Below, piece by piece: positions 1,955 through 64,000 of a DNA stretch of 64,000 nt (positions within the stretch are counted from its first letter, which is position 1; each line of letters opens with the position of its first letter). The stretch is taken from assembly GCA_902728285.1 (NCBI GenBank), contig CACVBU010000886.1, positions 303,315 through 367,314 of the forward strand, in the 5' to 3' direction. The translations under genes were made by a program, and so were the position numbers. The DNA comes from Clytia hemisphaerica. Lineage: Eukaryota; Cnidaria; Hydrozoa; Leptothecata; Clytiidae. The notes beneath the pieces were generated by a model that worked only from the letters and a program-made list of their open reading frames with translations, had not been told where the DNA came from and searched no databases.

Positions 1955-3062
1955 GGGTTACGACATAAGTTGGCGCCCCAAAATGGTATACCAAATGGCA
2001 CACCAAATGGCATAGCGAATTTATCTATGTATCTACGCATCCATGTATCTATGTATCTATGTATCTATATATCTACATATCCATGTATCTATATATCTAC
2101 GTATCTATGTTTCTACATATCCATGTATCTATCTGTCTATGTACCTATGTATTTATGTATCTATATATCTACATATCTACGCATCCATGTATCTACATAT
2201 CAACGTATCTATGTATCTATGTATCTACATATCTACGCATCTATGTATCTACATATCTACGCATCTATGTATCTACATATCTACGCATCTATGTATCTAC
2301 ATATCCACGTATCTATGTATCTACATATCTACGCATCCATGTATCCTTGTATCTATGTATCTACGCATCTATGTATCTATATATCTACATATCCATGTAT
2401 CTATGTATCTATATATCTACATATCTATGTATCTACATATCTACGCATCCATGTATCTATGTATCTATGTATCTACATATCTACATATCCATGTATCTAT
2501 ATATCTATGGATCAACATATCCACGTATCTATGTATCTACATATCTACGCATTCATGTATCTATGTATCTACATATCTACGCATCCATGTATCTATGTAT
2601 CTATATATGTACATATCCATGTATTTATATATCTATGTATCTACATATCCATGATTGTATCTATGTATCTATGTATCTATATATCTACATATTTATGCAT
2701 CCATGTATCTACATATCCATGTATCTATGTATGTGTAGATAATATAGATACATAGATACATGGATGCGTAGATACATAAATACATAGGTACATAGATACA
2801 TAGATACATAAATACATAGGTACATAGATACATAGATACATAGATACATAGATACATGGATATGTATACATAGATACGTATATATATAGATACGTATATA
2901 TATATAGATATATAGATTTATAGATACATGGATATGTAGATATATAGATACATAGATACATGGATGCGTAGATACATAGATAAATTCGCTATGCCATTTG
3001 GTGTGCCATTTGCGGTGCCATTTTGGTATGCCATTTTGGGGCGCCAACTTATGTCGTAACCC
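1955..3062. mobile_element. nested foldback Mutator-like element
   Basis: The ends are inverted repeats starting GGGTTACGACATAAGTTGGC and extend about 75-95 bp (through the GGCGCCCC and CAAATGGCATAGCGAATTT blocks). They are flanked by a perfect 9-bp direct repeat, CGTGAAAAC, at 1946-1954 and 3063-3071. The second CACTA copy carries the empty site with a single CGTGAAAAC, near 33398-33410 in reverse orientation, which confirms a discrete insertion. A 9-bp duplication and long inverted ends starting with G fit Mutator-like (MULE) foldback elements. The interior is only a simple array that inverts near 2740, so the whole element can fold on itself. No protein is encoded. Confidence 0.8.
2025..2990. 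repeat. inverted simple-sequence array (ATCTATGT / ATCTACAT / ATCTACGC)
   Basis: About 700 bases of roughly 8-bp units built on TATCTATG run to about 2740. They then turn into the reverse-complement form (GATACATA) for about 240 bases. This forms the two unequal arms of the foldback element. The long Tyr/Ile/Ser-rich open frames here exist in several frames at once and come from the repeat. Confidence 0.9.
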
Positions 3063-30827: not shown

Positions 30828-33800
30828 CACTGGGCGAAAAAAGAGATTTCCAGTGTGTGGAAAGGCGTGGAAATGTGACAATTCCACATCTTTCCAATGA
30901 GTGGAATGATGGTCTTTCCACATCCATTGGAAAGTTAATAAGGTTACCTTTCTATCTTTCCACAAGGTCATCTTTCTAACTTTCCAATCAGTGGAAAGAT
31001 CATTACTCCAACTTTCCAACTATTAGAAACTTCACTTTTCAAACTGGTGGAAATACGTAAATGTCAACTTTCTACATCTTTCAACTGATCAAAAATTTCA
31101 TCTTTCCACATCGATTGGAAAGTTTGTAAGGTTACCTTTCTATCTTTCTACAATATCATCTTTCTAACTTTCCAACAATTAGAAAGTCCATATTTCGAAA
31201 AAGTGGAAATACGAGGAAATATCAATCTTCCACATCTTTCCATACTGTTCAAAAATTTCATATTTTCACATTGATTGGAAATTTAGTTAGGCTATCTTCA
31301 AGCATTTGAAAATTCTTTTTTCTAAAGGTTGTAAAAACGTGGAATTTACGTTATTTCTAAATCTTCCAAGCTATTGGGGATTTGATCTTTCAACAATAAT
31401 GGAAAGTTACAAAGGTTTGAAATCTGTAATTCTTTCCAAACAGCTGAAAGCTCTAATTCCCACAAGAAATTAGAAGTTATATAATTAGTGACAAGTTGTG
31501 TTTCTTGCTATTAATGCTACTAATTTGAGAGTAAAATTTTGACTAATAAAATATTTCATAATTATATGCTTTTACATCGATAAGTTAAAAGCCACTTAAT
31601 CATGCATGTGATATGGAAATAAAATCTAAAGTACACAGTTTTCATAAGAATTACATAAATCCGGGAAAGCCTCAAATTTTTCAATTTTTGGAATATCTTT
31701 CATTTAATCATCAAAATTTTCTCTATTCAACTACCAAGTATTGTCTCAAGCGTGAGAAAAAGAGGAAGGAAACAAGAACTAATAATTTCAAATTTCAAAA
31801 GCCCAAGAATAATTTTAAGCCTTGTTTATTTTATAAATGGAAGACAAATAAATTTTAACTGAAAAATATTTTGAGCCTCAGCATGATTTTTAAAAGTTTG
31901 CAAATATTTGAGTCTTGCGATTCTTATAAAAAAATTAATCTAATCACAAATAATAATTTGAAAGAATTAAAAATGGTGAGGAAGAAAGCTTGAGAAATCA
32001 AATTCAGCTACCATAAACCAGATTTTAACTTTATATATTGAGGGTTATTTTTTTCTAAAATGTTTAGAAAACTCTAAGGTTGCAAAAAAAAATCATTGTC
32101 AATCTTGCCTGGACACTCTTAAAAAGCTTTAGAGTATAATGATGAATCATTTTGATGATCTAAAAAACTAATAAATAAATAATAAATAATATAAAAAACT
32201 CTTACCAAGATAATCTAATTTCCATTGATTTCAAATTAAATGAAAAACTAAAAATAATGCTAAACTGTATATATTCCAAAGAGGAAACTTGAATAAAAAC
32301 ATGAAGCACAAGCAAAACCAAGTTTACATCAAATTCATTTGATAATTGTTCAAAAGTCAGCTTCCACTATATAGCTATAAAAATTGGTATGCAGCAATCA
32401 TTTGAATAATGGCTGGGATAAATTCATAAGTCGATTTAATCGATATTGAAAATCACAGCATCCTACAACACTTTGATTGGACCATCTCTCCTGAACAAAA
32501 TAAGAAAATACAAAAGCATTTAATTCATCAAGTCTGCCAGAAGTCTTAGAAACTATCAACTTTGGTACATGATACCAGCAGTCAAGTTGTTGCTTGCATC
32601 TCCCTGATGCCTGAAGGAGAAAAGTTTCTAGTACGAATTCAGTTTGTAATGCTCTTATTAGTTAAACTTAGGATACTCTCTGATTTTAATTGTGTTGAAT
32701 ACAAAAGAAATTTGAAGAAAAATACATACTTACAATATCAAATTTATTGCAGAACAATGACAATGATTTTATCCATGTTCACATCAACACATTGTCGAAC
32801 GTTGTGACCTGAGGTGAGGAAGAGTAAAGCATATTTACACACCAGCTTGAATTAAAGAATTATCTAATCTCAGCTGTAAAAAAGCTAAAAGCATTTAAAG
32901 CTGAAACTTTTTTATTCTTCTATCCATCCCATTTAAAATGCCTAACATTTTGTGTAATCAGAGAACAATTATTTCTATCATTATGAAAAAACCAAAACCA
33001 AAAATTTAATTCATTCTCACTTTAGTTTAGCTAATTTGTTTTAATTACAATTTTCAAGAGACAATTTGATGCAATATAAATATAGATTTGATACTTCTTT
33101 GTGCTGTTCTGTAAATCTTGAAAAAATATATGGAGCACAACCCTTTCATAGCAAATGGACCAGGCTGGACTTAAAAAGGTTGGTTTGTCAATCCCCAAAC
33201 CCTAGATTTTGAAGATGGGTAGGTTGGAAGGAAAAATTATTTTTTTCTCAAGGTTTAGTTCCTAGTTTAGTTGTTCCCTTCTTAGCCTCAATTGGACTGC
33301 ATAATTCCACAAAAATGTTAGAAAACTGCTGAAAATCATATCCTGAATGCAACATATCAAGTGCAAAAAAAGGGGGGTTTGTCAGTTAGTAGGGGTTCGA
33401 AATACCGTTTTCACGTCTAAATTTTTGCTGAATCCCGGAATCTCGAAAATTGAAAAAAATAATAACACCGTCACACCGGTTTGTACAAGTTCAAATACCG
33501 GCTAATGACAAAAAAATAAGGCCAAATATCGTCACCGTCTAATTTTAAAATACCGTTTTCCCTTCTTTTTTTCGACTTAAAAATGGCCAACCCCCGTCAC
33601 ACCGTAAAAATACAACCCCCCCCCCCCAATAAAGGACGGCTATTCAAGTTTCCATTGAACCTATTTCTATATCTATTTATTTAATTTGAATAAACTTTAC
33701 AAAAGTCTCGTAAAACATGTCTAGGTCTGTTTCTTTAGAATTTTAGAAATACAGTATTTATTGTTGCAATACATTCACTAGAAACAACAATCATAGAAAG

Positions 33801-35126
33801 AAAATATCTAGTCACAGTCCCCTGAAAAGGCATTAATGTGATATTGCCAGAGGCATCTCTCAGAAAAAAGTGACAGACTGCTGAAAAAGTGCCAAAGAAA
33901 GCATCATGTGAAAGAGTCTCAGAAAAACTATTCCAGCTAAGACAAAAAGGACATTTTCAGTTCTAATATTCAAGTGGCTAAACTCTGAAAAGTAGCTAAA
34001 TTTGGTACTTACAAAGGCTTAGGGGAGAAATCTCCTCTTCTTCCAACAACTTGGTTTGGCTTGCTTCCTGCTTTCTGCTTTCATCAAACAGAATTTTGAA
34101 AGACTTATTTTTTCCAATGTTTTGAATTTGTAGACGAAAATGAAAACCGGGGGTTACAACCGAACAACTCAAAGTGGTTTTTAATTATTTAGCACATGTT
34201 TAGCACAATCTTTACACTTTGCTAGGTGTATAGATATTTTGAATTTATTTTAGACTTTTATATATTCTGAAAATAAATCATGAATTTAAACGTAGTTGAA
34301 AAAAGGATATTTTTACAAGTTATTCTTGACCCCCAGAAATCTTATGTTTTTCATTAATATTCAAAATGGCCAACGCGCCATAACCAAAAAAGCGCGCGCA
34401 CACATTTAGACTTTGAAAACCGTGGGTTGACAAATTTTGATTTTCTGATATGCCTTAAAAAATGACACTATTTTATACAGAATTAGATTATGCCAAAAAA
34501 GTGATGCTTTTAATTAAGGGATAATAGGAATAAGTAGGGTTGCTTAATTGAATCGTTTGATTCGGTTCCGGGGATAGTAAATATTTTTAAAAATTTGAAA
34601 GTGAAGAAAACAACTTTCCATAGATTGGAAATTCCACTCTTCTTCCTAAAATTGGGAAAGTTAGTAATAGTCATATTTTTGAAAATTGTAAAGATGGAAA
34701 AAATCATCTTTTAACAAATTTCCATAGATTGGAAATCTCATTCTTCTTAAAATTAGGAAATTTAGTAAAAGTCATATTTTCGAAAATTGGAAAATTGGAA
34801 AAAATCTACTTTTAACAACTTTCCATAGATTGGAATTTTCACTCTTCCTAAAATTAGGAAATTTAGTAAAAGTCATATTTTTGAAAATTGGAAAAGTGAA
34901 GAAAGACCGCCTTTCAACGAGTTTCCACGATCATAGAAATATCATCTTTCAAATTTTTGGAAAGATAGTGAAGATGAAATTTCCAAAATTGGAAATATGA
35001 AGAAATGAGATCTTTCAACAAATTTCCACAAAATTGTAAAAATGGTCTTTCGCTAATTGAGGAAAGATGTTAAAGATGAACATTCCAACATCTTTCCAAA
35101 ATGGAAAGCTCTAATTTCGCCCAGTG
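30828..35126 (-). mobile_element. CACTA-type non-autonomous DNA transposon, copy 2 (inverted)
   Basis: It starts CACTGGGCGAAA and ends TTTCGCCCAGTG, flanked by the 3-bp direct repeat AGT (30825-30827, 35127-35129). It is reverse-complementary to 337-5371 along its length. Examples are 32562-32860 with 3493-3776, and 34021-34100 with 1250-1330. It lacks the nested foldback and keeps the empty site, and it has about 150 bp missing from copy 1. It also has extra subterminal TTTCCATAGATTGGAAA-like units (34600-34900). No transposase. Two small frames near 32562 and 31613 have counterparts or shadows in copy 1 and are not taken as genes. Confidence 0.85.
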
Positions 35127-35490
35127 AGTGAAAACTTCAAGCACTTTTTCTTGGCCGTTATACAGTCAAAATAATTGAATTGAGTTTTAAAACTCAATAC
35201 TTGACTGCAACCCTGTAAGAGAAGGGGTTTGAAAAAGTCTAAATTATTAGATGTTTATATAAAATGAATTTGTCAGTGTTTTTTTGTTTGTTCCTTTGGT
35301 TTTTACAATTTTTTTCTTTGAAAAGAAAAATAGATTTCAGCTCGAATAGCTTTCAGTTCAAATAGCATAGCGTGGTTTAAACCACCCAGAAAACTGTGGA
35401 TTGATAGGGGGTGTTCAGAAGTTTGTCAATTCTTCAAACCATTCAATTCTGAATCAGCAAGTCTTTTTGATTTGAAATTTTGGACAAGGG
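35127..35490. other. spacer between CACTA copy 2 and the LTR element
   Basis: No gene. Contains the perfect 14-bp palindrome GTGGTTTAAACCAC at 35372-35385 and the AGGG target duplication of the LTR element (35487-35490). Confidence 0.4.
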
Positions 35491-35587
35491 TATAGGATTT
35501 TATGTCATGTATATATATCTTTCTCTTGTTCTTTAGATTAACATTCATAGTTACTATAAATAAACATATGAATAAGACATTCTTCAT
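35491..35587 (+). repeat. 5' LTR
   Basis: 97 bp starting TATAGGATTTTATGTCATG. It contains ACTATAAATAAACATATG, a possible TATA/poly(A) segment. Confidence 0.85.
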
Positions 35588-35602
35588 GTTAATCTTATTC
35601 TA

Positions 35603-37060
35603 ATGGATGAATTGCAATGTCCAATCCCTGGTTGTAACTACAAGACACCAGCGGGATCATCAGAGAATGTCGCATGCACCCTTCTTTCTGCACACAGCAC
35701 GATTCATAGGGGTGGTCGCACACCTGTCACCCCTGGACCAAAGTTGGATCGGCCCAAAGTGGATAGCGGCCTCAACCAGGAGGATTGGAACTTATTTATT
35801 CACCGCTGGGATGCATTTGTGAATGGATCGGGTCTTGACCCAAATGATTGCTCGACTCAACTGTTCCAATGTGCCAGCCAGGCACTTGGAGATAGTCTTC
35901 TTCGCTCGAATCCGGGAATTATGAATCGTCCCACTAATGAACTTTTGGCGCTAATGAGATCACTTGCCGTTGTTGCTGTTGCCACTTGTGTCACCAGGAC
36001 CGAGCTGATGAACATGACTCAACAGCGTGATGAACAATTTCGTATATTTGCCTCTCGTGTCAGAGAAAAGGCAGTGACTTGTAATTATAAGACGAAATGT
36101 ACCTGCAATAACACTGTTGATTTCACGGATTCTATTATTAGAGATATTTTGATAGCGGGTATTGTAGATTCTGATATTCGTCGAGAGATACTAGGTGTGA
36201 AAGACATACTAGATACACCTATCAATGACATTATCGCACTTGTTGAAAGCAAGGAGATGGCACGCGATGCGCTTCCCCTGCCAGTTGGGAGTGTATCACC
36301 CTCTTCCTATCGTCGCAACAGGTCGAAACAAGTCGAAACACCTCAGACCGACATTCCTGTTCCTTGCCCTGGATGCCAGAAGCCATTTCTGCGTTTCAGT
36401 GAAGGTCGAAATGGTCGCAATAAGAAAGCTCACAAGCTCTGCATCGAATGTTACCGTATCGAACGTCGCCAAGATAAAACCAATTCCAATCTGCCGACCA
36501 AGCCAGACGCATCAAATACTGCCGGTGTTGATACCATGTTTAGTCAAGTATCAGGAATCACCACTGCGAGATCAGATCCCACTTCTGTTGCTGACCAAAA
36601 TGCAATTGCTTCACCTCACAGTATATTTACCAAGGGCCAGTGGCGGAAGTCGAAGTTCAAAAATCACCCTAGGGTAGAACTCTTATTATCTGTTCTGTCA
36701 TCTGATTATAAACAGTTCAGTAAAAGATGCCCTAACGTTGCTCCTACCAAAATCACAGCACTGGCCGATACCGGTACTCAGTCTTGTCTTTGGTCGCTGA
36801 AAGAATTCGAGTCACTTGGCTTCACGAAAAATGATTTGATTCCCGTTAACATCAACCTCATGGCTGCAAACAAGTCACCCATAACCGTTGAAGGAGCTGC
36901 TTGCGTTCGATTAGAGGGTGTCGCATCAGACGGCTCCAATCAGTCCTGCTCCACTATGGTTTATATCAGTCGTCAGGCACAGGGATTCTACCTTTCGCTG
37001 GAGAACATGATGGAACTGGGTATAGTTCCAAGAGACTTTCCTTCCATTAAACTGTTGTAA
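35603..37060 (+). CDS. Gag-like and aspartic protease portion of the LTR element
   Basis: 485 codons. The N-terminus carries a CxxxxC pair (C6, C11), then a helical region resembling retrotransposon capsid (about 55-215). A zinc-binding-like segment follows (CPGCQKPF near residue 255, later CIEC). Near residue 389 lies the protease motif ALADTGTQS, with D389 as the catalytic Asp. The protein assembles the particle and cuts the polyprotein (family knowledge). The frame ends at TAA 37058-37060. It continues open in the same frame directly after that stop, so the stop falls inside what looks like one gag-pol reading frame. The Met at 35603 is the first after the LTR. Confidence 0.85.
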   Translation: MDELQCPIPGCNYKTPAGSSENVACTLLSAHSTIHRGGRTPVTPGPKLDRPKVDSGLNQEDWNLFIHRWDAFVNGSGLDPNDCSTQLFQCASQALGDSLLRSNPGIMNRPTNELLALMRSLAVVAVATCVTRTELMNMTQQRDEQFRIFASRVREKAVTCNYKTKCTCNNTVDFTDSIIRDILIAGIVDSDIRREILGVKDILDTPINDIIALVESKEMARDALPLPVGSVSPSSYRRNRSKQVETPQTDIPVPCPGCQKPFLRFSEGRNGRNKKAHKLCIECYRIERRQDKTNSNLPTKPDASNTAGVDTMFSQVSGITTARSDPTSVADQNAIASPHSIFTKGQWRKSKFKNHPRVELLLSVLSSDYKQFSKRCPNVAPTKITALADTGTQSCLWSLKEFESLGFTKNDLIPVNINLMAANKSPITVEGAACVRLEGVASDGSNQSCSTMVYISRQAQGFYLSLENMMELGIVPRDFPSIKLL

Positions 37061-37156
37061 TCGATCGATCAAGTTGGTCACACCACGAGCACCGTTGATA
37101 TCGATTCCATCAAGGAAAAGAGTTGCTCCTGTCGTACTCGCACACCCGTTCCTGAA

Positions 37157-40100
37157 ATGCCCAAAGAGTTACCGTTCGATTGCGTGCCTGAGAACAATGA
37201 CAAGATGAAAAAGTGGATTCTAGAACATTTCGCTTCTTCCACTTTTAACACCTGCCCTCATCAGACCCTCGAGAAAATAGAGGGGCCACCTGTTGAAATC
37301 CACTTGAAGGAGAACGCAGTTCCTAAAGCCGTTCAAACTCCTGCAAGTATCCCAATCCATTGGCAAGACCAAGTGCACAAGGACCTTTTGAGAGACGAGG
37401 CACTTGGCGTTATCGAAAAAGTGCCATATGGTGAACCAGTGACATGGTGCCACCGCATGGTCGTCACACGAAAACATGACGGCTCCCCCAGGAGGACTGT
37501 TGATTTATCTTCTCTGAACAAACATTGCCAACGAGAAACTTTCCCCACTGCATCTCCATTCCAGGCTGCTAGACGTGTACCACCCAACACCTGGAAGACC
37601 GTAAATGACGCATGGAACGGCTTCCATAGCGTCCCTCTTCGCGAGTCAGACAAGCATCTAACCACGTTCATTACACCCTACGGTCGTTGGAGGTATCGTG
37701 CTACAACCCAAGGGTTCTCCGGGTCCGGTGACGGATACAACCGCCGATTTGATCAGATATTATCGGACTTTGAAAGGAAGGAGTGTGTCACTGACGACGT
37801 TCTTCATCATGACGCATCTCTCAGGGAACATTGGTGGAGAACCTTAGAAATGCTTACCACGTCTGGTAGAGCAGGAATTACGATGAACCCAGACAAGTTT
37901 CAATTTACCCAACGTACTGTGGACTTTGCAGGTTTCCGAATTACAGATACGTCCATTGAACCACTCCCGAAATACACTGATGCAATACGTAATTTTCCGA
38001 CACCGAAGTCAATCACCGACATCCGCAGCTGGTTCGGTCTTGTAAACCAAGTGTCAAATTACGCCCAATTACGTGATTATATGGAACCCTTCAGTCCACG
38101 TGTACAATTTCAGTGGTCTCCCGAGCTCGATCTTGCTTTCCGACAATCCAAGGAGTCAATCATCCAAGCCATAAACGAAGGTGTTACTATTTTCGACCCA
38201 GCCCGCAAGACCTGTATCCGTCCAGACTGGTCCCGTAAAGGTATCGGCTATTTCCTCTATCAACAACATTGTGAATGTCCAACCGATACACCAGATTGCT
38301 GCAAACTAGGATGGCGGATTGTTCTTGCAGGATCTCGTTTCTTGTCAACAACGCAACAACGCTACGCACCTGTCGAAGGTGAGGCATTAGCTGTCGCTTG
38401 GTCGCTCGAACAGTCCAAGTATTTCACACAGGGCTGCCCCTCGCTTATCGTTGTAACCGACCATGAGCCTTTGGTAAAAATCCTCGGAGATCGAACGCTC
38501 GACGAGATTACGAACGATAGAATTTTTCGGCTGAAACAGCGAACACTGCCATGGTCCTTCAAGATTTATCATCTACCAGGGAAAACGAACCTTGCATCCG
38601 ACGCCACGTCACGCTATCCATCGGCTGTCATTGGATTATTGACTTTTGCTGACCAGGTAGAAGATGCCATTAATGCGGCCATTCGTGCTGATACCAACGC
38701 TACCTTCCACATGAGCTGGGACCAGATCATTGTTGAGACAGCTAAAGATCCATCGCTTTCCCTCCTGCTGAAGCACATACAGTCTGGCTTCGGCGAAATC
38801 CAACCTGATGAAATTGCCACAATATCCGAGTACTGGCGATATCGTGAGTCCCTCTACATAATGGATGATGTATTGCTTTATCAAGATCGGGTTGTTGTTC
38901 CACCATCTCTTCGCGAAACCGTCCTTTCGATACTTCACTCAGCACACCAAGGAGTATCTGCCATGTCATCCAGAGCTCAATCCACTGTCTTCTGGCCCGG
39001 TATGTCAAAAGATATCAATGCAACACGTGCCAACTGTACCCAATGCAATCGAAATGCTCCATCCCAAGTGGCCATGCCTGCAGCCCCACCATCGACACCG
39101 TCCACTCCATTCGAGATGATATTCGCTGACTTCTTCTCTTATGCTGGTTCCCACTATTTACTCGCCGGAGATCGACTATCTGGATGGGTTGAAGTTTATC
39201 GTTCGCTACACGGTAGCAATAAATCTGGTGCCAAGGGACTCATCACTGCGTTACGCTCTCTTTTCGCCACATTCGGTGTACCTGAGGAGCTATCGAGTGA
39301 TGGCGGCCCAGAATTCTCCGCACATGAAAATGAATTGTTCTTGAAGAAGTGGGGAGTGAGTCACCGTATTTCATCGGCTTACTTTCCCCAGTCCAACGGT
39401 CGCGCAGAGGTAGCGGTTAAGAAGTGCAAACGTCTTCTCATGGAGAATATCGACCCGAACGGTTCTCTTGACAACGATCGTTTCCTACGTGCTCTCTTTC
39501 AGATGAGGAACACACCCGACACTGACTGCAAGATCAGCCCCGCCGAAATCATCTTTGATAAGCCGTTAGGTGACGCTTTCTCCTTCGTAAATCGTCTCCC
39601 GATGTACACCAACCCCTCCATCCGTCCAACATGGCGCGACGCTTGGAACAAGAAAGAAGAGGCGATGCTCACTCGGTTTTCACGGTCATCAGAACGCTTG
39701 AACCGATTTTCCCGCCAACTACGACCGTTGCTCGTTGGCGACTACGTCCTGATCCAGAATCAGCATGGAAACCATCCTACAAAATGGGATAGATCGGGTG
39801 TCGTCGTCGAGGTTAAAGATCACGACCAATACGTTGTCAAGGTTGATGGTTCCCGTCGTGTCACTCTACGAAACCGTCGATTTCTACGCAAATTTACACC
39901 GATCACTTCGACCATCGCTCGACCCACAACGCCTATGAGGGTCGACGTCCCGCCATTACGTCAACCATTGCATCGAACCTCCGAGGTACCTGTCCCGATC
40001 ACGGCAGGAACCACAACTTCTGACGTACCACTTTCCACGTCTATTGAAGGTGACCAAGATTTATCACCAACGATTGTGAGTGATTCACCACCCTCTAATA

Positions 40101-40225
40101 TTCAAACCGAGGGTGATAGGAGAACTGTAACTCCAACCAACGGGGATTCAGTCGCATTGTCTCGTCCCCGTCGTGCAACAAGACCACCCGCAAGATATGA
40201 ACCAGAGAGTGGAACCTGGTCTTGA
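37157..40225 (+). CDS. Pol portion: reverse transcriptase, RNase H, integrase
   Basis: 1022 codons from the first Met; the open frame actually begins at 37061, right after the gag stop. The reverse transcriptase spans about residues 60-300 (RRTVDLSSLNKH, NDAWNGFHSVPL, TQGFSGSGDG). At the YxDD position (about 210) it reads CVTDDV, so the usual aromatic residue is absent but both Asp remain. RNase H has RPDWS (about 355), EGEALA (408), VTDHEP (434) and ASDATS (481). Integrase has a His/Cys finger (SAHQG, CTQC) and D (IFADFF, about 657), D (SSDGGPEF, 715), E (NGRAEVA, 751). A C-terminal basic/proline-rich tail follows a GPY/F-like module. All core domains are present and uninterrupted. Confidence 0.9.
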   Translation: MPKELPFDCVPENNDKMKKWILEHFASSTFNTCPHQTLEKIEGPPVEIHLKENAVPKAVQTPASIPIHWQDQVHKDLLRDEALGVIEKVPYGEPVTWCHRMVVTRKHDGSPRRTVDLSSLNKHCQRETFPTASPFQAARRVPPNTWKTVNDAWNGFHSVPLRESDKHLTTFITPYGRWRYRATTQGFSGSGDGYNRRFDQILSDFERKECVTDDVLHHDASLREHWWRTLEMLTTSGRAGITMNPDKFQFTQRTVDFAGFRITDTSIEPLPKYTDAIRNFPTPKSITDIRSWFGLVNQVSNYAQLRDYMEPFSPRVQFQWSPELDLAFRQSKESIIQAINEGVTIFDPARKTCIRPDWSRKGIGYFLYQQHCECPTDTPDCCKLGWRIVLAGSRFLSTTQQRYAPVEGEALAVAWSLEQSKYFTQGCPSLIVVTDHEPLVKILGDRTLDEITNDRIFRLKQRTLPWSFKIYHLPGKTNLASDATSRYPSAVIGLLTFADQVEDAINAAIRADTNATFHMSWDQIIVETAKDPSLSLLLKHIQSGFGEIQPDEIATISEYWRYRESLYIMDDVLLYQDRVVVPPSLRETVLSILHSAHQGVSAMSSRAQSTVFWPGMSKDINATRANCTQCNRNAPSQVAMPAAPPSTPSTPFEMIFADFFSYAGSHYLLAGDRLSGWVEVYRSLHGSNKSGAKGLITALRSLFATFGVPEELSSDGGPEFSAHENELFLKKWGVSHRISSAYFPQSNGRAEVAVKKCKRLLMENIDPNGSLDNDRFLRALFQMRNTPDTDCKISPAEIIFDKPLGDAFSFVNRLPMYTNPSIRPTWRDAWNKKEEAMLTRFSRSSERLNRFSRQLRPLLVGDYVLIQNQHGNHPTKWDRSGVVVEVKDHDQYVVKVDGSRRVTLRNRRFLRKFTPITSTIARPTTPMRVDVPPLRQPLHRTSEVPVPITAGTTTSDVPLSTSIEGDQDLSPTIVSDSPPSNIQTEGDRRTVTPTNGDSVALSRPRRATRPPARYEPESGTWS

Positions 40226-40524
40226 ACTATATTGATGTTTTGGTTATTTACGCGAGTTATATTTGTTTGTTATTACGAACGATCCTTTGCGATCTGATAC
40301 GTTAACGTTCATGATTTACTCGCTAGCTTTGTTTCATTTCTAAGGGACACTCCCTGTTGCTTGACATCTTGCACGTCATTACTGACAGTTTGCCTAGTTT
40401 ACCCGGCGAACGGGAGGAACAATGACATGATATGTGTTATTTTTTTTTCTTATGTTGACATCATCTTACATGGTCTCCACGGGTGTTGATCTCATCTTAT
40501 ATGCTTTCAAAATGGGGGGGGGGA

Positions 40525-40621
40525 TATAGGATTTTATGTCATGTATATATATCTTTCTCTTGTTCTTTAGATTAACATTCATAGTTACTATAAATAAACA
40601 TATGAATTAGTCATTCTTCAT
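40525..40621 (+). repeat. 3' LTR
   Basis: 97 bp, two substitutions from the 5' LTR (within the AATAAGAC versus AATTAGTC stretch). Preceded by the G-run polypurine tract. Confidence 0.85.
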
Positions 40622-45813: not shown

Positions 45814-47445
45814 AGGCCGGCGCAAATGAAGCCAACATTTGATCCAACATTCGAAATTTTCAATGTTGGATCGAATGTTGGCTTCATTTGCGCGCATTGA
45901 AAATTTCCAACTTTTTAAGAAATTTTGAGAATTCTAATGTTGGATGATGTTGGGTGAAGTTTGCTCGCGATCAAACTTTTCTTGCAACATTTTTGACAAA
46001 ATGTTGCCGATAATTAATGTTGGGTCCATTTGCGCGAGTTTTGACCCAACATTTGATTAAAACCTCCGTGATGAGTGCAAAACAACGACTGAGGGATATA
46101 TTCGAACGTTCGAATGTTCGAAATCGAACGTTTATGACAGTTTTCGAACGTTCGAATTTGCGAGAATATTTTGGGTGTGTCATCAAAAATGTTTCAAATC
46201 AGTTCAAAACAAAAAGAGAGAGTTTACAAGAAAAAGCAGCGATGAGTTTGACTGGAGAGCAACCTGCTGAAATAAATGATGCTGGTGAACCTAAGAGAGA
46301 GAGTCTGGAGAAAAAGAAGAAGAAAGCTCTCAAGGAGAAAGAGCGGCTTGCCAAGATGCCAAAAAGATTTTCTGAGATTCGACGGCCTCTACTGTGTCTG
46401 TAATTGTAAATTCGTTTTTCTTCGTTCAACCCTTGCTGGGGAAAAGGCTTCATCACAAATGGCCTTAGTGCAAATGCATCGTCTCCCAAAAAAACGTGCG
46501 GGACACTTTCCCCTGAAGAGCCTAATTTTTCTCCATTAGGAAGATCGACTGTTCCATCTTGAACCCCTTTCATTAGCGAAGTCCGATTCCAAATACCCGA
46601 ATCATTTGCTCTCCCCGGGGTTCCTGCATCTGCATAAAGACATTCGTAATTGGGACCAGCAACAGCCAAAAGAATAATAGAATGGGTATGCTTATAATTA
46701 TAATACCGCTATCCTTTATTTTTTGGTTTTATAATTCGAATGTGTTTTCCGTCCACGGCGCCTAGAGCATGGGGATAGTTCCATCTTTCTTCAAAACATT
46801 TTGCAATCTTGGACCATTGGTCTTTGTTTTCAGGAGGCATCAGGAACTCGGGCTCTAATCGTTCTACGATAGCATTACAGCAGCCCTTGATGATATATGA
46901 AACGGCATTTGCACAGATTCTGAATTGAAAGCTCAGAGACTCTAAGCTTTCTCCAGTGGCCAAATATCGTAGGGTCAAAGAAAGTCGTTCATCAGCGTTG
47001 ATAGGTCTTGTTCCACCAGATCTTTCTCTGGGTGAAGTAAGATCCGAGATCTTACTGAGAACGAACTGAAAGTCACGTACGTCCATCCTAAACATATCTC
47101 TGAACCCTATATGATCCTCCAAAATGAGCTCTTGAACAATGTTACTAAAATAGCCCTTTTCCTTGCGCCGTTTCAACCATTGTCTTGTTTTCCCTCTTCT
47201 TGGTTTCTCATCATCAGAGTCAACCAGCTCACTCAAGAGCACAACTGCCGTGAAGTCTTCCACCGTTGCCGCCATTATGGCAAAGAAAATGAAAATGAAA
47301 ATGAAAGTGAAAATGTTGGACGTTCACCTCAAATGACTTTTCATGCAACATTCCAAAGTTTGTGACGTCATTCGTTCTTTCAACATTTGACGCAACATTT
47401 AACAAAAAATGTTGGTTTGAATGTTGGCTTCATTTGCGCCGGCCT
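45814..47445 (-). mobile_element. Harbinger (PIF) DNA transposon
   Basis: The inverted ends start AGGCCGGCGCAAATGAAGCC on both sides, flanked by TAA (45811-45813, 47446-47448). This is the 3-bp TWA duplication typical of Harbinger. It carries a HARBI1-like transposase on the minus strand. The expected second Harbinger gene (Myb/SANT-like) is not recognised. The left part contains TTCGAACGTTCGAA-type palindromes (46095-46160). It lies in intron 12 of the NRF1-like gene. Confidence 0.85.
46199..47275 (-). pseudogene. HARBI1-like: Harbinger transposase (HARBI1-like), one in-frame stop
   Basis: The protein starts MAATVEDFTAVVLL, which looks like a complete N-terminus. It runs through a helix-turn-helix-like region (RYLATGESLESLSFQFRI) to ALGAVDGKHIRI (first catalytic Asp, D175) and NKG. 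A TAG follows, and the same frame continues RYYNYKHTHSI, then YADAGTPGRANDSGIW (second Asp), FLGDDAF and NYRHSRGRRISENLFGIL (catalytic Glu). All three DDE residues are therefore present. The TAG replaces a residue that is usually Ser in this family. The last 70 or so residues after the Glu diverge (Phe/Ser-rich), so the C-terminus is probably replaced. It is inactive as it stands. Confidence 0.85.
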
Positions 47446-53666: not shown

Positions 53667-55507
53667 ATGGCTGGCAATCTGATTCTTTTGGCTCCCGAAT
53701 CTCCGGAAGATCAATTTCAGTTGAAAATCGACGGAGAAGAGTTAAAAAAATTGGCGAAAATGGACGTCGCCGATGTTAACGAAAGGATAGTCACCTTCCT
53801 CGGAGATTTTGATTTAAAATTACAAGATCCAGACAGAACAACTAAAAGTTTGCGTGTTTTGGGGACTAGGGTCATTTCGGCAATGAGAAACAAAAACTCG
53901 AAGCGACAAGAAGAACTAAGAAGAAAGTGGCACTTCGTGTCTATCCAATATAATTTGGAAGCAGTTGAAAAAACAAAACTGGTACGTGTCTAAAAATAAT
54001 TTTCTTTTTCCATATATATTTCCGTAATATACAACAATTCGAAAAGATCTATTATCGGGTACCTAATAGCAGTCCCCCCCCGCTAATTAATTGCTACATG
54101 CGCTTTCTAAAGTGGAAACACTTCTAAAATAATTGTAACCTAAATAGTGACGAATATTTTGGAAAAACCCCTGTAAAACAGACCCCAGCCCAACTGGAAG
54201 AGGGTGGGAATGTACCCTGGATTCTATTGATAGATTTCTATCCCTACAGTGATTCCCGTAGGAATTTTTATCCCCACTCAGGAAAAGTTCCCGTGGGGCT
54301 ACGAGGCAGTGGTGTTTTGAAACGAGAACGCAAATGTCAGACAGGCCTTATAGGCGTTGTTTTTAAACTTTTTATGTAGACAACCTCCACATCCAAACAA
54401 ATAAGAACGAACCCGAAATCATTTGAAGAAATTGGGAAAAGACAAAAGTACCGAAGGTTAAATCAAATCAGGTATTTTTGTAACTTTGGAAATATCTCTT
54501 TTGGATTATTGTTAGCGGGGAAAGGTTTTTCGTTTTCTCTACTCGTTCGATCTGGATTTTTACTACCCTTGACAACAGCTCAGATCGCAAAAATTTATTC
54601 AATTGAAAATACTATGGTAAGACAGGGAGAATTAAAACATGGAAAAAATATTTCTCTTTTCGAAAAATTAACTTGTTTGAAGGATTATTTTATGCTTATT
54701 CTATAGGAATGGAATAAATGACGTAGTCGGGCAATTTGGATTTTCGGCAAATGAAATCAAATTGACGACTGCTGCTGACACACAATTGACTGTAACCCTC
54801 GATAAAGGTATTGACTGCGTAGTTAAACCCATGGCATTAATTTAATCTTTGAATCGGCAGCCTCCCCCAACCACAGAACTCATATACAATTCTAGAACGC
54901 TGGGTAATGAGTGTATATCTGGTTTGAGACGGGAATTATGAAATTGAATGAATCCAAACTATTCAAATATCTTTTTATTTTGAAAAATTGCAAATTCTTA
55001 TGCCCACCAGATCCACCTTCACAATCGTCACTTTGGACTGAGTCAAGTCAATCGACGGATCAATCCAGCCAGTCCACGGATCAATCCAGCCAGTCCACGG
55101 ATCAATCTAGTCAGCAATCAACATCAACAGGCGACGAATCCTTTGAGTGGAAAACCGGTAAGTTTCGTAAAACAGATGATTTGTCTATATGTTATCGTTT
55201 CTCCAAGCATCATATATTCTTTTAACGTATTCTTTCAATTTCAGGTGACGATTTATCTGAAATAGAGAGGGAGAAAGCTATTTCGTACGTGCTAGACCGA
55301 CACACTGTCTCACTCAAGGCGTACCACGAACTCACGCAATTGGCGGGAGAGTTACCAAGGACGCACAGGGTGGAAAAACGACTACGGGAAATCGGAGACA
55401 CATTTGAGATCCAGAGGACCGAGGGTAAAATCATTGGGGCTCAATGTTCCCTGAAAGATGAGCTGGAAAGAGATGCTAGAATACGTTGTGCAGAGAAAAG
55501 TGTTATG
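53667..55507 (+). CDS. six-exon gene of unknown family, 3' part missing
   Basis: Exons 53667-53981, 54380-54471, 54584-54616, 54707-54807, 55011-55157 and 55245-55507 join in consistent phase without stops, giving about 317 residues. Exon 1 starts MAGNLILLAPESPEDQF and is helical and charged (VNERIVTFLGDFDL, RQEELRRKWHF). Exon 2 has KSFEEIGKRQKYRRLNQIR, a short basic motif. Exon 4 reads VVGQFGFSANEIKLTTA. Exon 5 is low-complexity Ser/Gln/Thr from a 21-bp tandem repeat. Exon 6 is a charged helix (EREKAISYVLDRHTVSLKAY). There is no signal peptide or membrane segment. I do not recognise the family. Seventeen bases after the last donor the 3.84-kb array begins, so the 3' exons lie beyond or inside it. 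Clean phase over six exons argues for a functional gene. Confidence 0.55.
55042..55115 (+). repeat. 21-bp coding tandem repeat
   Basis: Three to four units of CGGATCAATCCAGCCAGTCCA (one register) encode repeated SSQSTDQ inside exon 5 of the six-exon gene. The 21-bp period keeps the frame, so unit-number changes would be tolerated. Confidence 0.8.
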
Positions 55508-56108
55508 GTAAGTTGTCGCTATCATCTATATACTAAAAGTCTAATTTTCTATGAGCCGTGGGGTGGCCATTATGAATTTTTTTCCAAGTCTCTTTTTGAA
55601 TCGAGCTCCGAGCGGGAAAACAGTAGAGAGTCCTTTTTTCGAGGCGGAGTACGTTTCTTTGGAGACACGGCACCGGAAAATAGCCTACGGTTCCTTGCCG
55701 ATCGGGAAACGTCGCGCGGTTCGGAAGCGTATCTCCGTTTTCGAAATTCTACTTTACTGGTAATTTTCGTAAAAGTAAATAGAAAAGCAAGAAGCTCATT
55801 GATTGATCTGGTCTCTCTGCTCTGGTCACTGGTGCCATCGTTTGTACATGGATAGGGAATGGTCTAATGGTCATGGTATCCTGTTTCTTAAATAGAGAAC
55901 ATTTTGTTATGGATTTGTACAGTTGTTCTTCAGAAATTATTATGGGGCTTATCGCAACCAACCATCTTAACAAAATAAACAAAGAACAAAGACCGACCAA
56001 TGGAAACATTTACTTTAGCCCTCTTGAAAATTGAGGGTGGCATATTTTTGCTGCATGGTAATACATCCAAGTAATTTGGTAGTCTTTGTAGGCGGCAATC
56101 ACAAATAT

Positions 56109-56755
56109 GTCCCGACCGACCGCCTCACTTTGTAGACCGACCGACCGCCTCACTTTGTAGTAGACCGACCGACCGCCTCACTTTGTTGACCGACCGACCG
56201 CCTCACTTTGTAGACCGACCGACCACCTCACTTTGTAGACCGACCGCCTCACTTTGTAGACCGACCGACCGCCTCACTTTGTAGACTGACCGACCGCTTC
56301 ACTTTGTAGACCGACCGACCGCCTCACTTTGTAGACTGACCGAGCGCTTCACTTTGTAGACCGACCGACCGCCTCACTTTGTAGACCGACCGACCGCCTC
56401 ACTTTTTAGATTGACCGACCGCCTCACTTTGTAGCCCGACCGACCACCTCACTTTGTAGACCGACCACCTCACTTTTTGTAGACCGACCGCTCAATTTTT
56501 AGACCGACTGACCGCCTCACTTTTTAGATTGACCGACCGCCTCACTTTGTAGCCCGACCGACCGCCTCACTTTGTAGACCGACCGCCTCACTTTTTGTAG
56601 ACCGACCGTCGACTCAATTTTTAGACCGACTGACCGACTCACTTTTTAGACCGACCGACTCACTTTTTTAGACCGACCGATCCGACTCACTTTTAGACCG
56701 ATCGACCGACTCACTTTTTTAGACCGACCGACCGACTCACGTTTTAGACCAACCG
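56109..56755 (+). repeat. ~25-bp minisatellite, unit 1
   Basis: About 25 imperfect units of CCGACCGACCGCC joined to TCACTTTGTAGA. Later units shorten and shift to CGACTCACTTTTTAGA. The same ordered variants recur in the other array units. Confidence 0.85.
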
Positions 56756-59700
56756 ACTCTTTGTTTATAAGAACACTTTATTTTCCATCATTTTTATTAT
56801 GTTGTAAATAGGAAAAGGATATAGTTATTATTGACACCATTATATGATAAAATGAATCATTCTAATTTCATTCAGATTTATATACATTAAATTTATCACT
56901 AGCACCTCTTCAATTAACACTAAACCTCATTATAAAAAATATTGACATTATCCTATCTTCCATTTCTTTGGGTTCCTTTGTAGTATTGAGCGGCTGATAT
57001 TTTCATTTTATACCGTACCAGTTTTTTGTACTCAATAAATTCATGTTGTCTGTGTAGTAAATGGTTTTGGCCTTCAAGCTTAACTTCTTGCTTTTAAAGT
57101 ATTCAGTTGTTAATCATTATGTCTATATAAAAAGTAAAATGGTTAATCGGGAAGGAAAATAGGAAAAAAAACTTTTTCTAATCTGTGACACATTTTTGTT
57201 CCCTGTGTTTTTTGTTTACATTGGGAATCCGCCATTTTTCTTTAAATCCGTTCACATAGCAACGTGATAGACCGTATATTTTATAGCCCGGACTTTTACG
57301 GAAGATAGCTATGAAACTCAATAAGGCGATATCTCGAGATTGGAAAGGAGTTAGGAGATGGTTGACCCCTCATTGGATCGGGAATTTAATAGAGAATAAG
57401 TTGGGAAAGGTAAGAGTGGGTATAAAGAAACTTTAGAAAATATACATATTCAAATTGGGGCATTTTGGGTCCGATGACGTCATCAAAACCTAAAAAATAC
57501 AATATCTCGAGTTTGAGAAAGATTTAAGCAATAGATGACCCCTCATTGGATCGGAAATCATCAAGAGAATCTTTTGGATAAATGACAAATTGATTTCAGT
57601 GAAGTGAAAAGTTTATTACCCTTTCGATGACGTCACTTAGGGCCAAAATGACGTCACAAAACATGAAATATGCGGTTTTCCGAGTTTTGATCATAGAAAA
57701 GTGGTAATATTTCCTTCTTTGGGCTTACAATATACAATTTTTACCTTCCCCCACCATCCAAAGGGCTTTTGATGTGTTCAACAACACTCTACTCGGCGGG
57801 TGCGACGGTAAATTGGAATGAAGATAATCAAATTCTTCTTCACACCTTTAAGGGTAAAAGAACTAAAATTAATTAGAATAACTTTTTACCCCCTGGAAAT
57901 ATTCATCCACTGTATGATACGAAAATGGAACGATCCATTCGTGACAATCTTGTTCCATCGTTTGTATTATTCTCTTGATAAACTGGTTGAAATGGAATCG
58001 CTGTGTTTTGCAGAAGTTGGTAAGACACATAATTCATCCGTCATAATTATCAGAAAATTTATTTAAAACCCCCTCCCCCCACCGGTAGCTACGGCAAGTC
58101 GAGTTACATGTAGAATGTCAATCACCGAATAGTATGAATAGTTGACATAATCTACATCCTCTTGTTGAAATTGGTAATCAAATGAGCAATCTGACAGAGA
58201 AGGAGATGACTTGCGAAAACACTGACGTAGCAGATGAAGAGGGTACTGATGATCTGCCCGATCCAAAACTGGGTAACTATTGGTTAATCGCCCAAAATCT
58301 TTAAAATGAGGCGTGGTTGCCTAGAAAACAATCAAACGGTATTTATTTCAGTCTGAAACCACAATTTTCGTCAGAATACGAATACCTAACTTTTACATTT
58401 ACATTAAATTCTCAACACCCTCTCAGGTTTTCTTTTATTTGTTTTTTATAGTCCAATCAATCGGACTTCAGTGTTATGTCATTAGAAAATTAATTTCTTT
58501 AGAAAAATATGGAGAATTTCAATTATAATACACGACCCATTAATGAAATTTTATCCTTATAAGATACTTTATAGCCCATCTTTCAGCAAGTAAGTAAATA
58601 AAACAAACAATCTAATATAATACAATACAATAAGAAAGAAAATAGTTAGAAAGGGTTTTTATTTTTTTTCGTAGGTATTTTTTTTCTCATGTATTATATA
58701 TATATGCACCGTCTCCTGTTGAATTTTATAATGCACTTTGGGGAAGCCTAGAAAATACCCTTAAAGGCTTTATTTTTACATGACTTTTATTATTGTTGTT
58801 ACTATATACCAAGTTTTTTCTCATTACATATTTCATTACTCGAACCTCTATAACTCGAATGTCTCTTTAACTCGAACAAGTTTTTTCGTCCATTCAGTTA
58901 ACAATGGCTTATAAACCTTAGTCCGTAACTCGAACAGATTTGTTTTTCTCGTTGTTCACAACGACATCTGCGCATGTCAAGTATCGATACAAACGCTCCT
59001 CCACTACCTACAAAATTGGACAATAAACCTCTAAGTAGTTTAACCGAATCCACGGGTATCCGGCGTAATAAAAGTAGCGGTTCTCTGGTTGAAATGATGT
59101 CAAGTAATGCGACTCTTTTGGCAAACGCATGCGCGTAAGCAAAATTTACAAAATTTCAATGATATGCGGGTACTAAAAATGAAAATTCAGTTTTTTTTCA
59201 CGATTTAACAATCGTCATAGATTATATAATACAAAAAATATATATTATATCATTATTCATGTCCCTGTTTCATACACAATGTCAAAGTAGAAGAAGGAAT
59301 AGTAGTTAGTAAGTTATTTTGTCTTCTCCTTCTTTCCTTCTTATAATAATTTATTGTTCATCTATATACTAAAAGTCTAATTTTCTATGAGCCGTGGGGT
59401 GGCCATTATGAATTTTTTTCCAAGTCTCTTTTTGAATCGAGCTCCGAGCGGGAAAACAGTAGAGAGTCCTTTTTTCGAGGCGGAGTACGTTTCTTTGGAG
59501 ACACGGCACCGGAAAATAGCCTACGGTTCCTTGCCGATCGGGAAACGTCGCGCGGTTCGGAAGCGTATCTCCGTTTTCGAAATTCTACTTTACTGGTAAT
59601 TTTCGTAAAAGTAAATAGAAAAGCAAGAAGCTCATTGATTGATCTGGTCTCTCTGCTCTGGTCACTGGTGCCATCGTTTGTACATGGATAGGGAATGGTC

Positions 59701-59944
59701 TAATGGTCATGGTATCCTGTTTCTTAAATAGAGAACATTTTGTTATGGATTTGTACAGTTGTTCTTCAGAAATTATTATGGGGCTTATCGCAACCAACCA
59801 TCTTAACAAAATAAACAAAGAACAAAGACCGACCAATGGAAACATTTACTTTAGCCCTCTTGAAAATTGAGGGTGGCATATTTTTGCTGCATGGTAATAC
59901 ATCCAAGTAATTTGGTAGTCTTTGTAGGCGGCAATCACAAATAT

Positions 59945-60592
59945 GTCCCGACCGACCGCCTCACTTTGTAGACCGACCGACCGCCTCACTTTGTAGTAGA
60001 CCGACCGACCGCCTCACTTTGTTGACCGACCGACCGCCTCACTTTGTAGACCGACCGACCACCTCACTTTGTAGACCGACCGCCTCACTTTGTAGACCGA
60101 CCGACCGCCTCACTTTGTAGACTGACCGACCGCTTCACTTTGTAGACCGACCGACCGCCTCACTTTGTAGACTGACCGAGCGCTTCACTTTGTAGACCGA
60201 CCGACCGCCTCACTTTGTAGACCGACCGACCGCCTCACTTTTTAGATTGACCGACCGCCTCACTTTGTAGCCCGACCGACCACCTCACTTTGTAGACCGA
60301 CCGCCTCACTTTTTGTAGACCGACCGCTCAATTTTTAGACCGACTGACCGCCTCACTTTTTAGATTGACCGACCGCCTCACTTTGTAGCCCGACCGACCG
60401 CCTCACTTTGTAGACCGACCGCCTCACTTTTTGTAGACCGACCGTCGACTCAATTTTTAGACCGACTGACCGACTCACTTTTTAGACCGACCGACTCACT
60501 TTTTTAGACCGACCGATCCGACTCACTTTTAGACCGATCGACCGACTCACTTTTTTAGACCGACCGACCGACTCACGTTTTAGACCAACCGA
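59945..60592 (+). repeat. ~25-bp minisatellite, unit 2
   Basis: Same series of variant units in the same order as in unit 1, with very few base differences. Confidence 0.85.
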
Positions 60593-63500
60593 CTCTTTGT
60601 TTTATAAGAACACTTTATTTTCCATCATTTTTATTATGTTGTAAATAGGAAAAGGATATAGTTATTATTGACACCATTATATGATAAAATGAATCATTCT
60701 AATTTCATTCAGATTTATATACATTAAATTTATCACTAGCACCTCTTCAATTAACACTAAACCTCATTATAAAAAATATTGACATTATCCTATCTTCCAT
60801 TTCTTTGGGTTCCTTTGTAGTATTGAGCGGCTGATATTTTCATTTTATACCGTACCAGTTTTTTGTACTCAATAAATTCATGTTGTCTGTGTAGTAAATG
60901 GTTTTGGCCTTCAAGCTTAACTTCTTGCTTTTAAAGTATTCAGTTGTTAATCATTATGTCTATATAAAAAGTAAAATGGTTAATCGGGAAGGAAAATAGG
61001 AAAAAAAACTTTTTCTAATCTGTGACACATTTTTGTTCCCTGTGTTTTTTGTTTACATTGGGAATCCGCCATTTTTCTTTAAATCCGTTCACATAGCAAC
61101 GTGATAGACCGTATATTTTATAGCCCGGACTTTTACGGAAGATAGCTATGAAACTCAATAAGGCGATATCTCGAGATTGGAAAGGAGTTAGGAGATGGTT
61201 GACCCCTCATTGGATCGGGAATTTAATAGAGAATAAGTTGGGAAAGGTAAGAGTGGGTATAAAGAAACTTTAGAAAATATACATATTCAAATTGGGGCAT
61301 TTTGGGTCCGATGACGTCATCAAAACCTAAAAAATACAATATCTCGAGTTTGAGAAAGATTTAAGCAATAGATGACCCCTCATTGGATCGGAAATCATCA
61401 AGAGAATCTTTTGGATAAATGACAAATTGATTTCAGTGAAGTGAAAAGTTTATTACCCTTTCGATGACGTCACTTAGGGCCAAAATGACGTCACAAAACA
61501 TGAAATATGCGGTTTTCCGAGTTTTGATCATAGAAAAGTGGTAATATTTCCTTCTTTGGGCTTACAATATACAATTTTTACCTTCCCCCACCATCCAAAG
61601 GGCTTTTGATGTGTTCAACAACACTCTACTCGGCGGGTGCGACGGTAAATTGGAATGAAGATAATCAAATTCTTCTTCACACCTTTAAGGGTAAAAGAAC
61701 TAAAATTAATTAGAATAACTTTTTACCCCCTGGAAATATTCATCCACTGTATGATACGAAAATGGAACGATCCATTCGTGACAATCTTGTTCCATCGTTT
61801 GTATTATTCTCTTGATAAACTGGTTGAAATGGAATCGCTGTGTTTTGCAGAAGTTGGTAAGACACATAATTCATCCGTCATAATTATCAGAAAATTTATT
61901 TAAAACCCCCTCCCCCCACCGGTAGCTACGGCAAGTCGAGTTACATGTAGAATGTCAATCACCGAATAGTATGAATAGTTGACATAATCTACATCCTCTT
62001 GTTGAAATTGGTAATCAAATGAGCAATCTGACAGAGAAGGAGATGACTTGCGAAAACACTGACGTAGCAGATGAAGAGGGTACTGATGATCTGCCCGATC
62101 CAAAACTGGGTAACTATTGGTTAATCGCCCAAAATCTTTAAAATGAGGCGTGGTTGCCTAGAAAACAATCAAACGGTATTTATTTCAGTCTGAAACCACA
62201 ATTTTCGTCAGAATACGAATACCTAACTTTTACATTTACATTAAATTCTCAACACCCTCTCAGGTTTTCTTTTATTTGTTTTTTATAGTCCAATCAATCG
62301 GACTTCAGTGTTATGTCATTAGAAAATTAATTTCTTTAGAAAAATATGGAGAATTTCAATTATAATACACGACCCATTAATGAAATTTTATCCTTATAAG
62401 ATACTTTATAGCCCATCTTTCAGCAAGTAAGTAAATAAAACAAACAATCTAATATAATACAATACAATAAGAAAGAAAATAGTTAGAAAGGGTTTTTATT
62501 TTTTTTCGTAGGTATTTTTTTTCTCATGTATTATATATATATGCACCGTCTCCTGTTGAATTTTATAATGCACTTTGGGGAAGCCTAGAAAATACCCTTA
62601 AAGGCTTTATTTTTACATGACTTTTATTATTGTTGTTACTATATACCAAGTTTTTTCTCATTACATATTTCATTACTCGAACCTCTATAACTCGAATGTC
62701 TCTTTAACTCGAACAAGTTTTTTCGTCCATTCAGTTAACAATGGCTTATAAACCTTAGTCCGTAACTCGAACAGATTTGTTTTTCTCGTTGTTCACAACG
62801 ACATCTGCGCATGTCAAGTATCGATACAAACGCTCCTCCACTACCTACAAAATTGGACAATAAACCTCTAAGTAGTTTAACCGAATCCACGGGTATCCGG
62901 CGTAATAAAAGTAGCGGTTCTCTGGTTGAAATGATGTCAAGTAATGCGACTCTTTTGGCAAACGCATGCGCGTAAGCAAAATTTACAAAATTTCAATGAT
63001 ATGCGGGTACTAAAAATGAAAATTCAGTTTTTTTTCACGATTTAACAATCGTCATAGATTATATAATACAAAAAATATATATTATATCATTATTCATGTC
63101 CCTGTTTCATACACAATGTCAAAGTAGAAGAAGGAATAGTAGTTAGTAAGTTATTTTGTCTTCTCCTTCTTTCCTTCTTATAATAATTTATTGTTCATCT
63201 ATATACTAAAAGTCTAATTTTCTATGAGCCGTGGGGTGGCCATTATGAATTTTTTTCCAAGTCTCTTTTTGAATCGAGCTCCGAGCGGGAAAACAGTAGA
63301 GAGTCCTTTTTTCGAGGCGGAGTACGTTTCTTTGGAGACACGGCACCGGAAAATAGCCTACGGTTCCTTGCCGATCGGGAAACGTCGCGCGGTTCGGAAG
63401 CGTATCTCCGTTTTCGAAATTCTACTTTACTGGTAATTTTCGTAAAAGTAAATAGAAAAGCAAGAAGCTCATTGATTGATCTGGTCTCTCTGCTCTGGTC

Positions 63501-63781
63501 ACTGGTGCCATCGTTTGTACATGGATAGGGAATGGTCTAATGGTCATGGTATCCTGTTTCTTAAATAGAGAACATTTTGTTATGGATTTGTACAGTTGTT
63601 CTTCAGAAATTATTATGGGGCTTATCGCAACCAACCATCTTAACAAAATAAACAAAGAACAAAGACCGACCAATGGAAACATTTACTTTAGCCCTCTTGA
63701 AAATTGAGGGTGGCATATTTTTGCTGCATGGTAATACATCCAAGTAATTTGGTAGTCTTTGTAGGCGGCAATCACAAATAT

Positions 63782-64000
63782 GTCCCGACCGACCGCCTCA
63801 CTTTGTAGACCGACCGACCGCCTCACTTTGTAGTAGACCGACCGACCGCCTCACTTTGTTGACCGACCGACCGCCTCACTTTGTAGACCGACCGACCACC
63901 TCACTTTGTAGACCGACCGCCTCACTTTGTAGACCGACCGACCGCCTCACTTTGTAGACTGACCGACCGCTTCACTTTGTAGACCGACCGACCGCCTCAC
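63782..64000 (+). repeat. ~25-bp minisatellite, unit 3 (cut by window edge)
   Basis: The first eight or so units, in the same order as in units 1 and 2; the rest lies outside the window. Confidence 0.85.

Follow-up and report, generated by a model that had tools for sequence, protein, structure and literature searches.

A six-unit tandem array of a terminator-broken Helitron in the hydrozoan Clytia hemisphaerica

How Helitrons capture host DNA and how they come to form tandem arrays are open questions, and both are raised by a locus of the hydrozoan Clytia hemisphaerica at the right end of a 64,000-nucleotide stretch of DNA (hereinafter the window; C612:303315-367314 of the 417-Mb assembly G000, where C-numbers are contig labels). 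The initial annotation of the window had described here a near-identical 3.84-kb tandem array that leaves the window, and had considered very recent amplification as its source. The assembly contains the array, at a greater length than the window shows: six head-to-tail units of ~3,837 bp each lie on C612 (unit starts at 358839, 362675, 366512, 370348, 374186 [interrupted] and 391260). Our best reading, favored with modest confidence, is that a Helitron with a broken terminator was amplified by rolling-circle replication from one 5′ TC to the next.

In the window, unit 1 (55525..59360, + strand; 3,836 bp) and unit 2 (59361..63197, +; 3,837 bp) are followed by the first 803 bp of unit 3 (63198..64000, +), which runs beyond the window as C612:366512-370347. 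The 5′ sequence of the unit, TCTATATACTAAAAGTC, starts at 55525, 59361 and 63198, always on the + strand, and has no further occurrence on either strand of the window; allowing up to three mismatches still gave three matches, a number reached in 0 of 100 shuffles. Between units 1 and 2 there are two differences, a substitution and an inserted T; unit 3 shows no difference from unit 2 over its 803 bases. In an alignment of all six units, from which a 13.2-kb insert in unit 5 had been removed beforehand, the only substitution sets unit 1 apart from the rest, 13 columns are one-base indels and unit 6 has an insertion of 4 bases, in keeping with the very recent amplification that had been proposed. 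Units 5 and 6 account for ten of these 13 columns, and many of the indels between units may be read errors. The array is without any N, and an N run (C612:405910-410147) lies ~10.8 kb past it; the units could look more alike than they are if identical repeats were evened out in polishing, and the copy number is that of the assembly.

An internal minisatellite, with 26 copies of a 25-bp unit, occupies 56112..56757 (+), and it is within the minisatellite that unit 5 is split by the 13.2-kb insertion (C612:375292-388530; L022-L024). This insertion has inverted ends (CCCAGCCGGCAC) and a 688-aa open reading frame (ORF) without a Pfam match at 0.01. As for coding content, the 10 scanned ORFs of the 20 listed for the unit matched no Pfam family at E 1; searches for structured RNAs were negative for Rfam families, both at gathering across the window and at E 1 over 55400-59500, and for tRNA. 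Matches of 17-mers in viral (3 stretches) and prokaryote (10) contigs were set aside as chance, being without further similarity to the unit, and guessed forms of its terminal sequence had no match in published text.

The array units as non-autonomous members of a canonical Helitron family

The initial annotation had pointed to a Helitron-type 5′ end and proposed a genome-wide search with the unit for further copies and their exact ends. The search, for which the first 1,001 bases of the unit served as query (40 of 662 candidates scored; matches counted by eye), recovered a dispersed family that bears out the 5′ assignment: the matches listed lie on 26 other contigs, and 30 of those listed outside C612 begin at unit base 1, that is, at the TC that in the array follows an A (5′ terminus TCTATATACTAAAAGTC at 55525..55541, +). 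We fetched 16 loci from the top of the match list, a sample biased towards relatives of the unit. In their family copies the part held in common with the unit reaches unit base 2283 (in unit 1, the Helitron part at 55525..57807, +) and continues for 15 more bases ending in CTAG; together with the bases before them, these form a hairpin with an 8-bp stem and a 7-nt loop (z-score −1.03, the energy alone not being evidence), after which comes the CTAG. The 3′ ends in these loci read CTAGT in 49/51 cases and CTGTC and CTATT in one each. Where an array of the family ends without a recognizable next element, we read CTAG/T by eye in 10 of 11 cases (two with the same downstream sequence) and CTAT/T in the eleventh, the slash marking the border. 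Family elements start after CTAG (38/45), after A (5/45) or after other bases (2/45); the seven starts at dispersed loci without a preceding CTAG follow A (5), T (1) and G (1), and the array itself begins at A/TC. These ends match those of canonical Helitrons, as described in the accessible part of PMC4067079, and the units of the array are non-autonomous members of this family.

The unit has lost the end of that structure. Its 3′ terminator (57791..57807, +) consists of the left arm of the hairpin, the loop and two bases of the right arm; the final 15 bases of the family 3′ end (the rest of the right arm, the spacer and CTAG) are absent, and after unit base 2283 non-family sequence begins inside the hairpin. 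When both strands of the unit were scanned for CTRR preceded by a hairpin, the ends of the unit had no candidate, and the one found, at 56862 in mid-unit, is weak and AT-rich. The lack of a classical 3′ end at the unit junction, noted earlier, is thereby traced to the loss of the element's end from within the hairpin onward, with 1,553 bp of patchwork in its place, and the inner joints of the array carry no terminator. That the unit is a truncated canonical Helitron is almost certain, and much firmer than either of the mechanisms of amplification weighed below.

The patchwork segment and the adjoining Rep/helicase copy

The remainder of the unit, hereinafter segment X (57808..59360, +; 1,553 bp), was recovered at full length from the six array units only (40 of 2,803 candidates scored), and from none of the 16 family loci. 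Nine pieces of X, together about 996 of its 1,553 bases, match other places in the assembly. Five do so at 100%: 135 bp at 57830..57964 (+; G000:C321:85534-85668, −); 113 bp at 58157..58269 (+; C277:626386-626498, −), with one frame open across the source piece; 57 bp at 58639..58695 (+; C49:46975-47031, +); 141 bp at 58968..59108 (+; C585:1618489-1618629, +, and at 99% a second place on C585), which at its source lies within a 147-aa open frame; and 99 bp at 59108..59206 (+), a dispersed repeat with at least 27 other places at 96-100%. The other four match at 92-97%: 119 bp at 58345..58463 (+; 93% to C594:3790635-3790753, +), 123 bp at 58488..58610 (+; 92% to C338:104502-104629, −), 115 bp at 58838..58952 (+; 97% to C797:1365310-1365424, −), which resembles a piece of a dispersed repeat, and 95 bp at 59247..59341 (+; 96% to C796:1875760-1875854, +). 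Only once do two known pieces meet directly, with a one-base overlap. X was probably copied from the other loci and not the reverse. We also considered X to be plain intron DNA caught between two Helitrons, a view against which the separate matches of its pieces to other loci argue.

Directly after unit 6, at C612:395098, begins R, a Helitron of the same family that measures 10,354 bp from TC to CTAG, and the border between array and R coincides precisely with the TC at which R starts; the hairpin and CTAG of R lie at C612:405433-405451. The locus thus has several 5′ ends and one downstream 3′ end, with six terminator-less units followed by R. R is 94% identical to the unit over the first 257 bp, with the first difference at base 40, and 81-87% identical further in. 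Its pieces match Helitron_like_N (1e-60) and PIF1 (3.2e-49) in Pfam, and its Rep piece matches the protein of the bat Helitron Helraiser (phmmer 3.9e-262). The initial annotation had proposed a search for an autonomous relative with Rep/helicase. Besides R, a relative of the autonomous type is the copy L034 (C248), with an uninterrupted 1,494-aa Rep/helicase frame inside another array (Helraiser match, phmmer E 0). By motif patterns, this frame has LPHAH (HUH) at 596 and Walker A at 1064; two further patterns, one for the Rep tyrosines and one for Walker B, gave no match in the frame. In a third copy of the Rep/helicase type, L036 (C594), the frame is split. Over 5.1 kb R matches L034 at 95%, and over 3.6 kb it matches L036 at 99.5%, which indicates that the long copies moved or recombined recently. 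At the L034 and L036 loci, as at C612, the tandem array includes non-autonomous copies with a Rep/helicase-type copy on their downstream side.

Ordinary arrays and the origin of the six units

Exact GACGGCTAG/TCTATATACTAAAAGTC joints number 123 in the assembly, against 0 for a control. We compared the last 480 bp of 39 elements from the 16 loci and obtained 82.4% identity for 24 adjacent pairs versus 82.3% for 690 different-locus pairs, the adjacent-pair value being reached in 869 of 2,000 permutations; 37 pairs are at least 97% alike, and 0 of them are adjacent. Fourteen short forms behave likewise (90.5% within loci, 8 pairs, versus 90.8% between loci, 83 pairs). Since neighbors are no more alike than copies from different loci, we reject a simple concatemer origin, and the ordinary arrays examined were put together from unrelated copies. 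If new copies inserted at the A/TC border of a resident, such arrays would result and the same border would be there for the next copy. The six-unit array differs from them in being made of sister copies without a terminator at its inner joints. Local amplification is thus, among the loci examined, special to the terminator-less unit. The expectation in the initial annotation that rolling-circle replication yields tandem copies was accordingly too simple, unrelated copies being joined in the ordinary arrays of the loci examined. Short forms of ~1.05 kb (the first 57 plus about the last 490 family bases) stand in tandem at L026, L027, L030, L037 and other loci, and C232 has several exact CTAG/TC joints ~1.05 kb apart.

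For the six units, the reading that we favor would start from a Helitron lying upstream of R that lost its 3′ end, the break being filled by repair or template switching to give the patchwork X. With the terminator gone, synthesis begun at the TC of this element would cross the patchwork and stop only at the 5′ nick site that came next, the A/TC of R, and the TC-to-TC stretch would become a new unit. Such a unit could then be copied repeatedly, via a circle with a TTCA/TC junction or by re-replication in place, with the outcome of six near-identical copies, R supplying the first 3′ end downstream of them. Copying of this kind would account for the position of every joint exactly at TC. In the Helraiser experiments, as far as the accessible part of the report goes, the hairpin is the terminator; elements that lack it are read through and acquire new 3′ ends, and an intact palindrome is not required for circles to form (PMC4778049). 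More tentatively, as a proposal on which we would not lean heavily, the A/TC 5′ end may be a self-renewing landing and stop site: Rep would nick residents there and new copies would join at CTAG/TC, so that arrays of unrelated copies grow 5′-ward; where the terminator is lost, the next 5′ end would terminate synthesis, and the TC-to-TC unit with its foreign DNA would become a new amplifiable element.

Several other explanations were weighed; they overlap, so that our degrees of confidence need not sum to one. Tandem repeats generally expand by unequal crossing-over, and a possible though not favored account, the foremost rival, is that a truncated Helitron, the patchwork and R stood in a row, that an exchange between the similar 5′ ends duplicated the interval, and that further exchange gave six copies, with no transposase needed. 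Crossing-over between two same-orientation copies would duplicate exactly the TC-to-TC interval; unit bases 1-1795 and R bases 1-1478 are homologous, with gaps, and three bases (TCA) are common at the left border. However, the unit-type base is present at position 40 and beyond in 6/6 units, which would place the exchange within the first 39 bp (42 with TCA), a tract that makes up 6-10%, by tract length, of the identity available, and no unit in the six-unit alignment has R-type bases. Against amplification by TC-to-TC rolling-circle copying weigh several points. Such copying is something that we infer; an expectation of 6-10% leaves room for crossing-over to have made the first duplication, and once two units exist ordinary unequal crossing-over could supply the rest. 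The frame of R is broken in the Walker A region, so that R may lack activity or its sequence may contain errors. Neither the right border nor the empty site can be read at C612, where a diverged element start is joined directly to R as CTAG/TC at 405452 and the N run mentioned above follows. About 557 of the 1,553 bases of X are without a known source, and matches such as those of X may also be present in non-array DNA of this genome.

The A/TC at the left edge and the hairpin and CTAG at the end of R would also suit one giant element, in which the six units and R arrived together from elsewhere as a single Helitron reaching from the first TC to the CTAG of R. We regard this as unlikely: full-length X was recovered here only (40 of 2,803 candidates scored), so that no donor is known, and the right border is unreadable. 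Rather more doubtful still is an effect of assembly or polishing, by which the true copies would be fewer or their identity inflated. The crowding of indel columns in units 5 and 6, which resembles residual read errors, and the N gap ~10.8 kb beyond the array are what such an effect might leave; yet three copies are individually marked, namely the first (left flank and substitution), the fifth (13.2-kb insertion) and the last (R), and an artefact would not be expected to place its joint at a transposon's own 5′ end. Least credible, to the point that we give it hardly any weight, is a Helentron-type element or a satellite unrelated to transposition. The internal minisatellite and the lack in the unit of a CTRR end with a good hairpin had suggested a Helentron or a distinct element type to the initial annotation, and Helentrons and HINEs (Helentron/HINE; oyster Cg_HINE, Drosophila DINE-1) are likewise non-coding, with internal tandem repeats, and of the rolling-circle class. 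The proposal is contradicted by the canonical hairpin and CTAG ends of the family; in the accessible parts of their descriptions, Helentrons and HINEs feature subterminal inverted repeats (12-15 bp) and T-rich or TT insertion sites. Subterminal inverted repeats of the unit are not above background (the longest reverse-complement match of its first 40 bp in its last 200 bp is 7, within the random range, a weak point alone for a unit without its native 3′ end), and no endonuclease domain is among the Pfam hits of three ORFs of R that were scanned.

Known systems and the surroundings of the array

Arrays of this kind are already known, and the present example is an unusually clear one. Tandem Helitrons with 3′-truncated inner copies were reportedly described by Xiong, Dooner and Du in 2016 for plants and by Pritham and Feschotte in 2007 for bats. 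As far as the accessible parts of the sources go, in plant Helitron arrays a single 3′ end goes with many 5′ ends (PMC12628747), the inner members of a Helitron tandem are frequently cut short at 3′ (PMC7492417), and the combination of many 5′ ends with a single 3′ end, as at our locus, is explained by rolling-circle copying of a terminator-less template. In apparent contrast to those arrays, as far as papers citing them describe them, the downstream copy with the 3′ end is here a diverged Rep/helicase Helitron of the same family, and a patchwork of fragments follows the broken hairpin in each unit. With Helraiser and Helibat, both bat Helitrons, the locus shares the kind of protein (Rep piece of R, frame of L034). 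In the part of the Helraiser paper accessible to us, that element likewise ends in a hairpin and CTAG, the read-through upon loss of its hairpin is the counterpart of the broken hairpin here, and the word ‘tandem’ is absent from the main text (PMC4778049). The array differs from Helraiser in belonging to another family and in having a terminator-less unit with a patchwork in six near-identical copies. The locus is thus a natural snapshot of the shuffling of DNA by Helitrons, in which the steps assumed for the process can be seen together with almost no divergence: a hairpin interrupted halfway, short pieces matching other loci on the broken end (five still at 100%), local amplification, and a Rep/helicase neighbor. 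The contrast with the ordinary arrays of unrelated copies in the same family makes the role of the terminator testable.

The array probably lies within an intron. Between the last exon in the window and unit 1, the 16 bp at 55509..55524 (+) resemble the start of an intron (donor GTAAGT), a reading made from the sequence in which the gene and its splice site are predicted and for which no homologue was found. The window DNA looks like animal DNA, with one exon of the immunoglobulin type and one similar to receptor tyrosine kinases. Of the other repeats in the window, a piece of a DDE_Tnp_4 (Harbinger) transposase (46199-46669, −) has a neighboring ORF without a Pfam match (46709-47275, −). At 35488-40621, ORFs for reverse transcriptase, RNase H and integrase lie between 100-bp direct repeats that are 97% identical, an element presumably of the Gypsy type. 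Direct repeats of 1.5 kb at 9430-10937 and 17024-18535, ~6 kb apart and 99.4% identical, resemble the long terminal repeats of a young element. Finally, the repeat stretches at 337-5371 and 30828-35126, in opposite orientation and 88-94% identical, have receptor-kinase-like exons between them.

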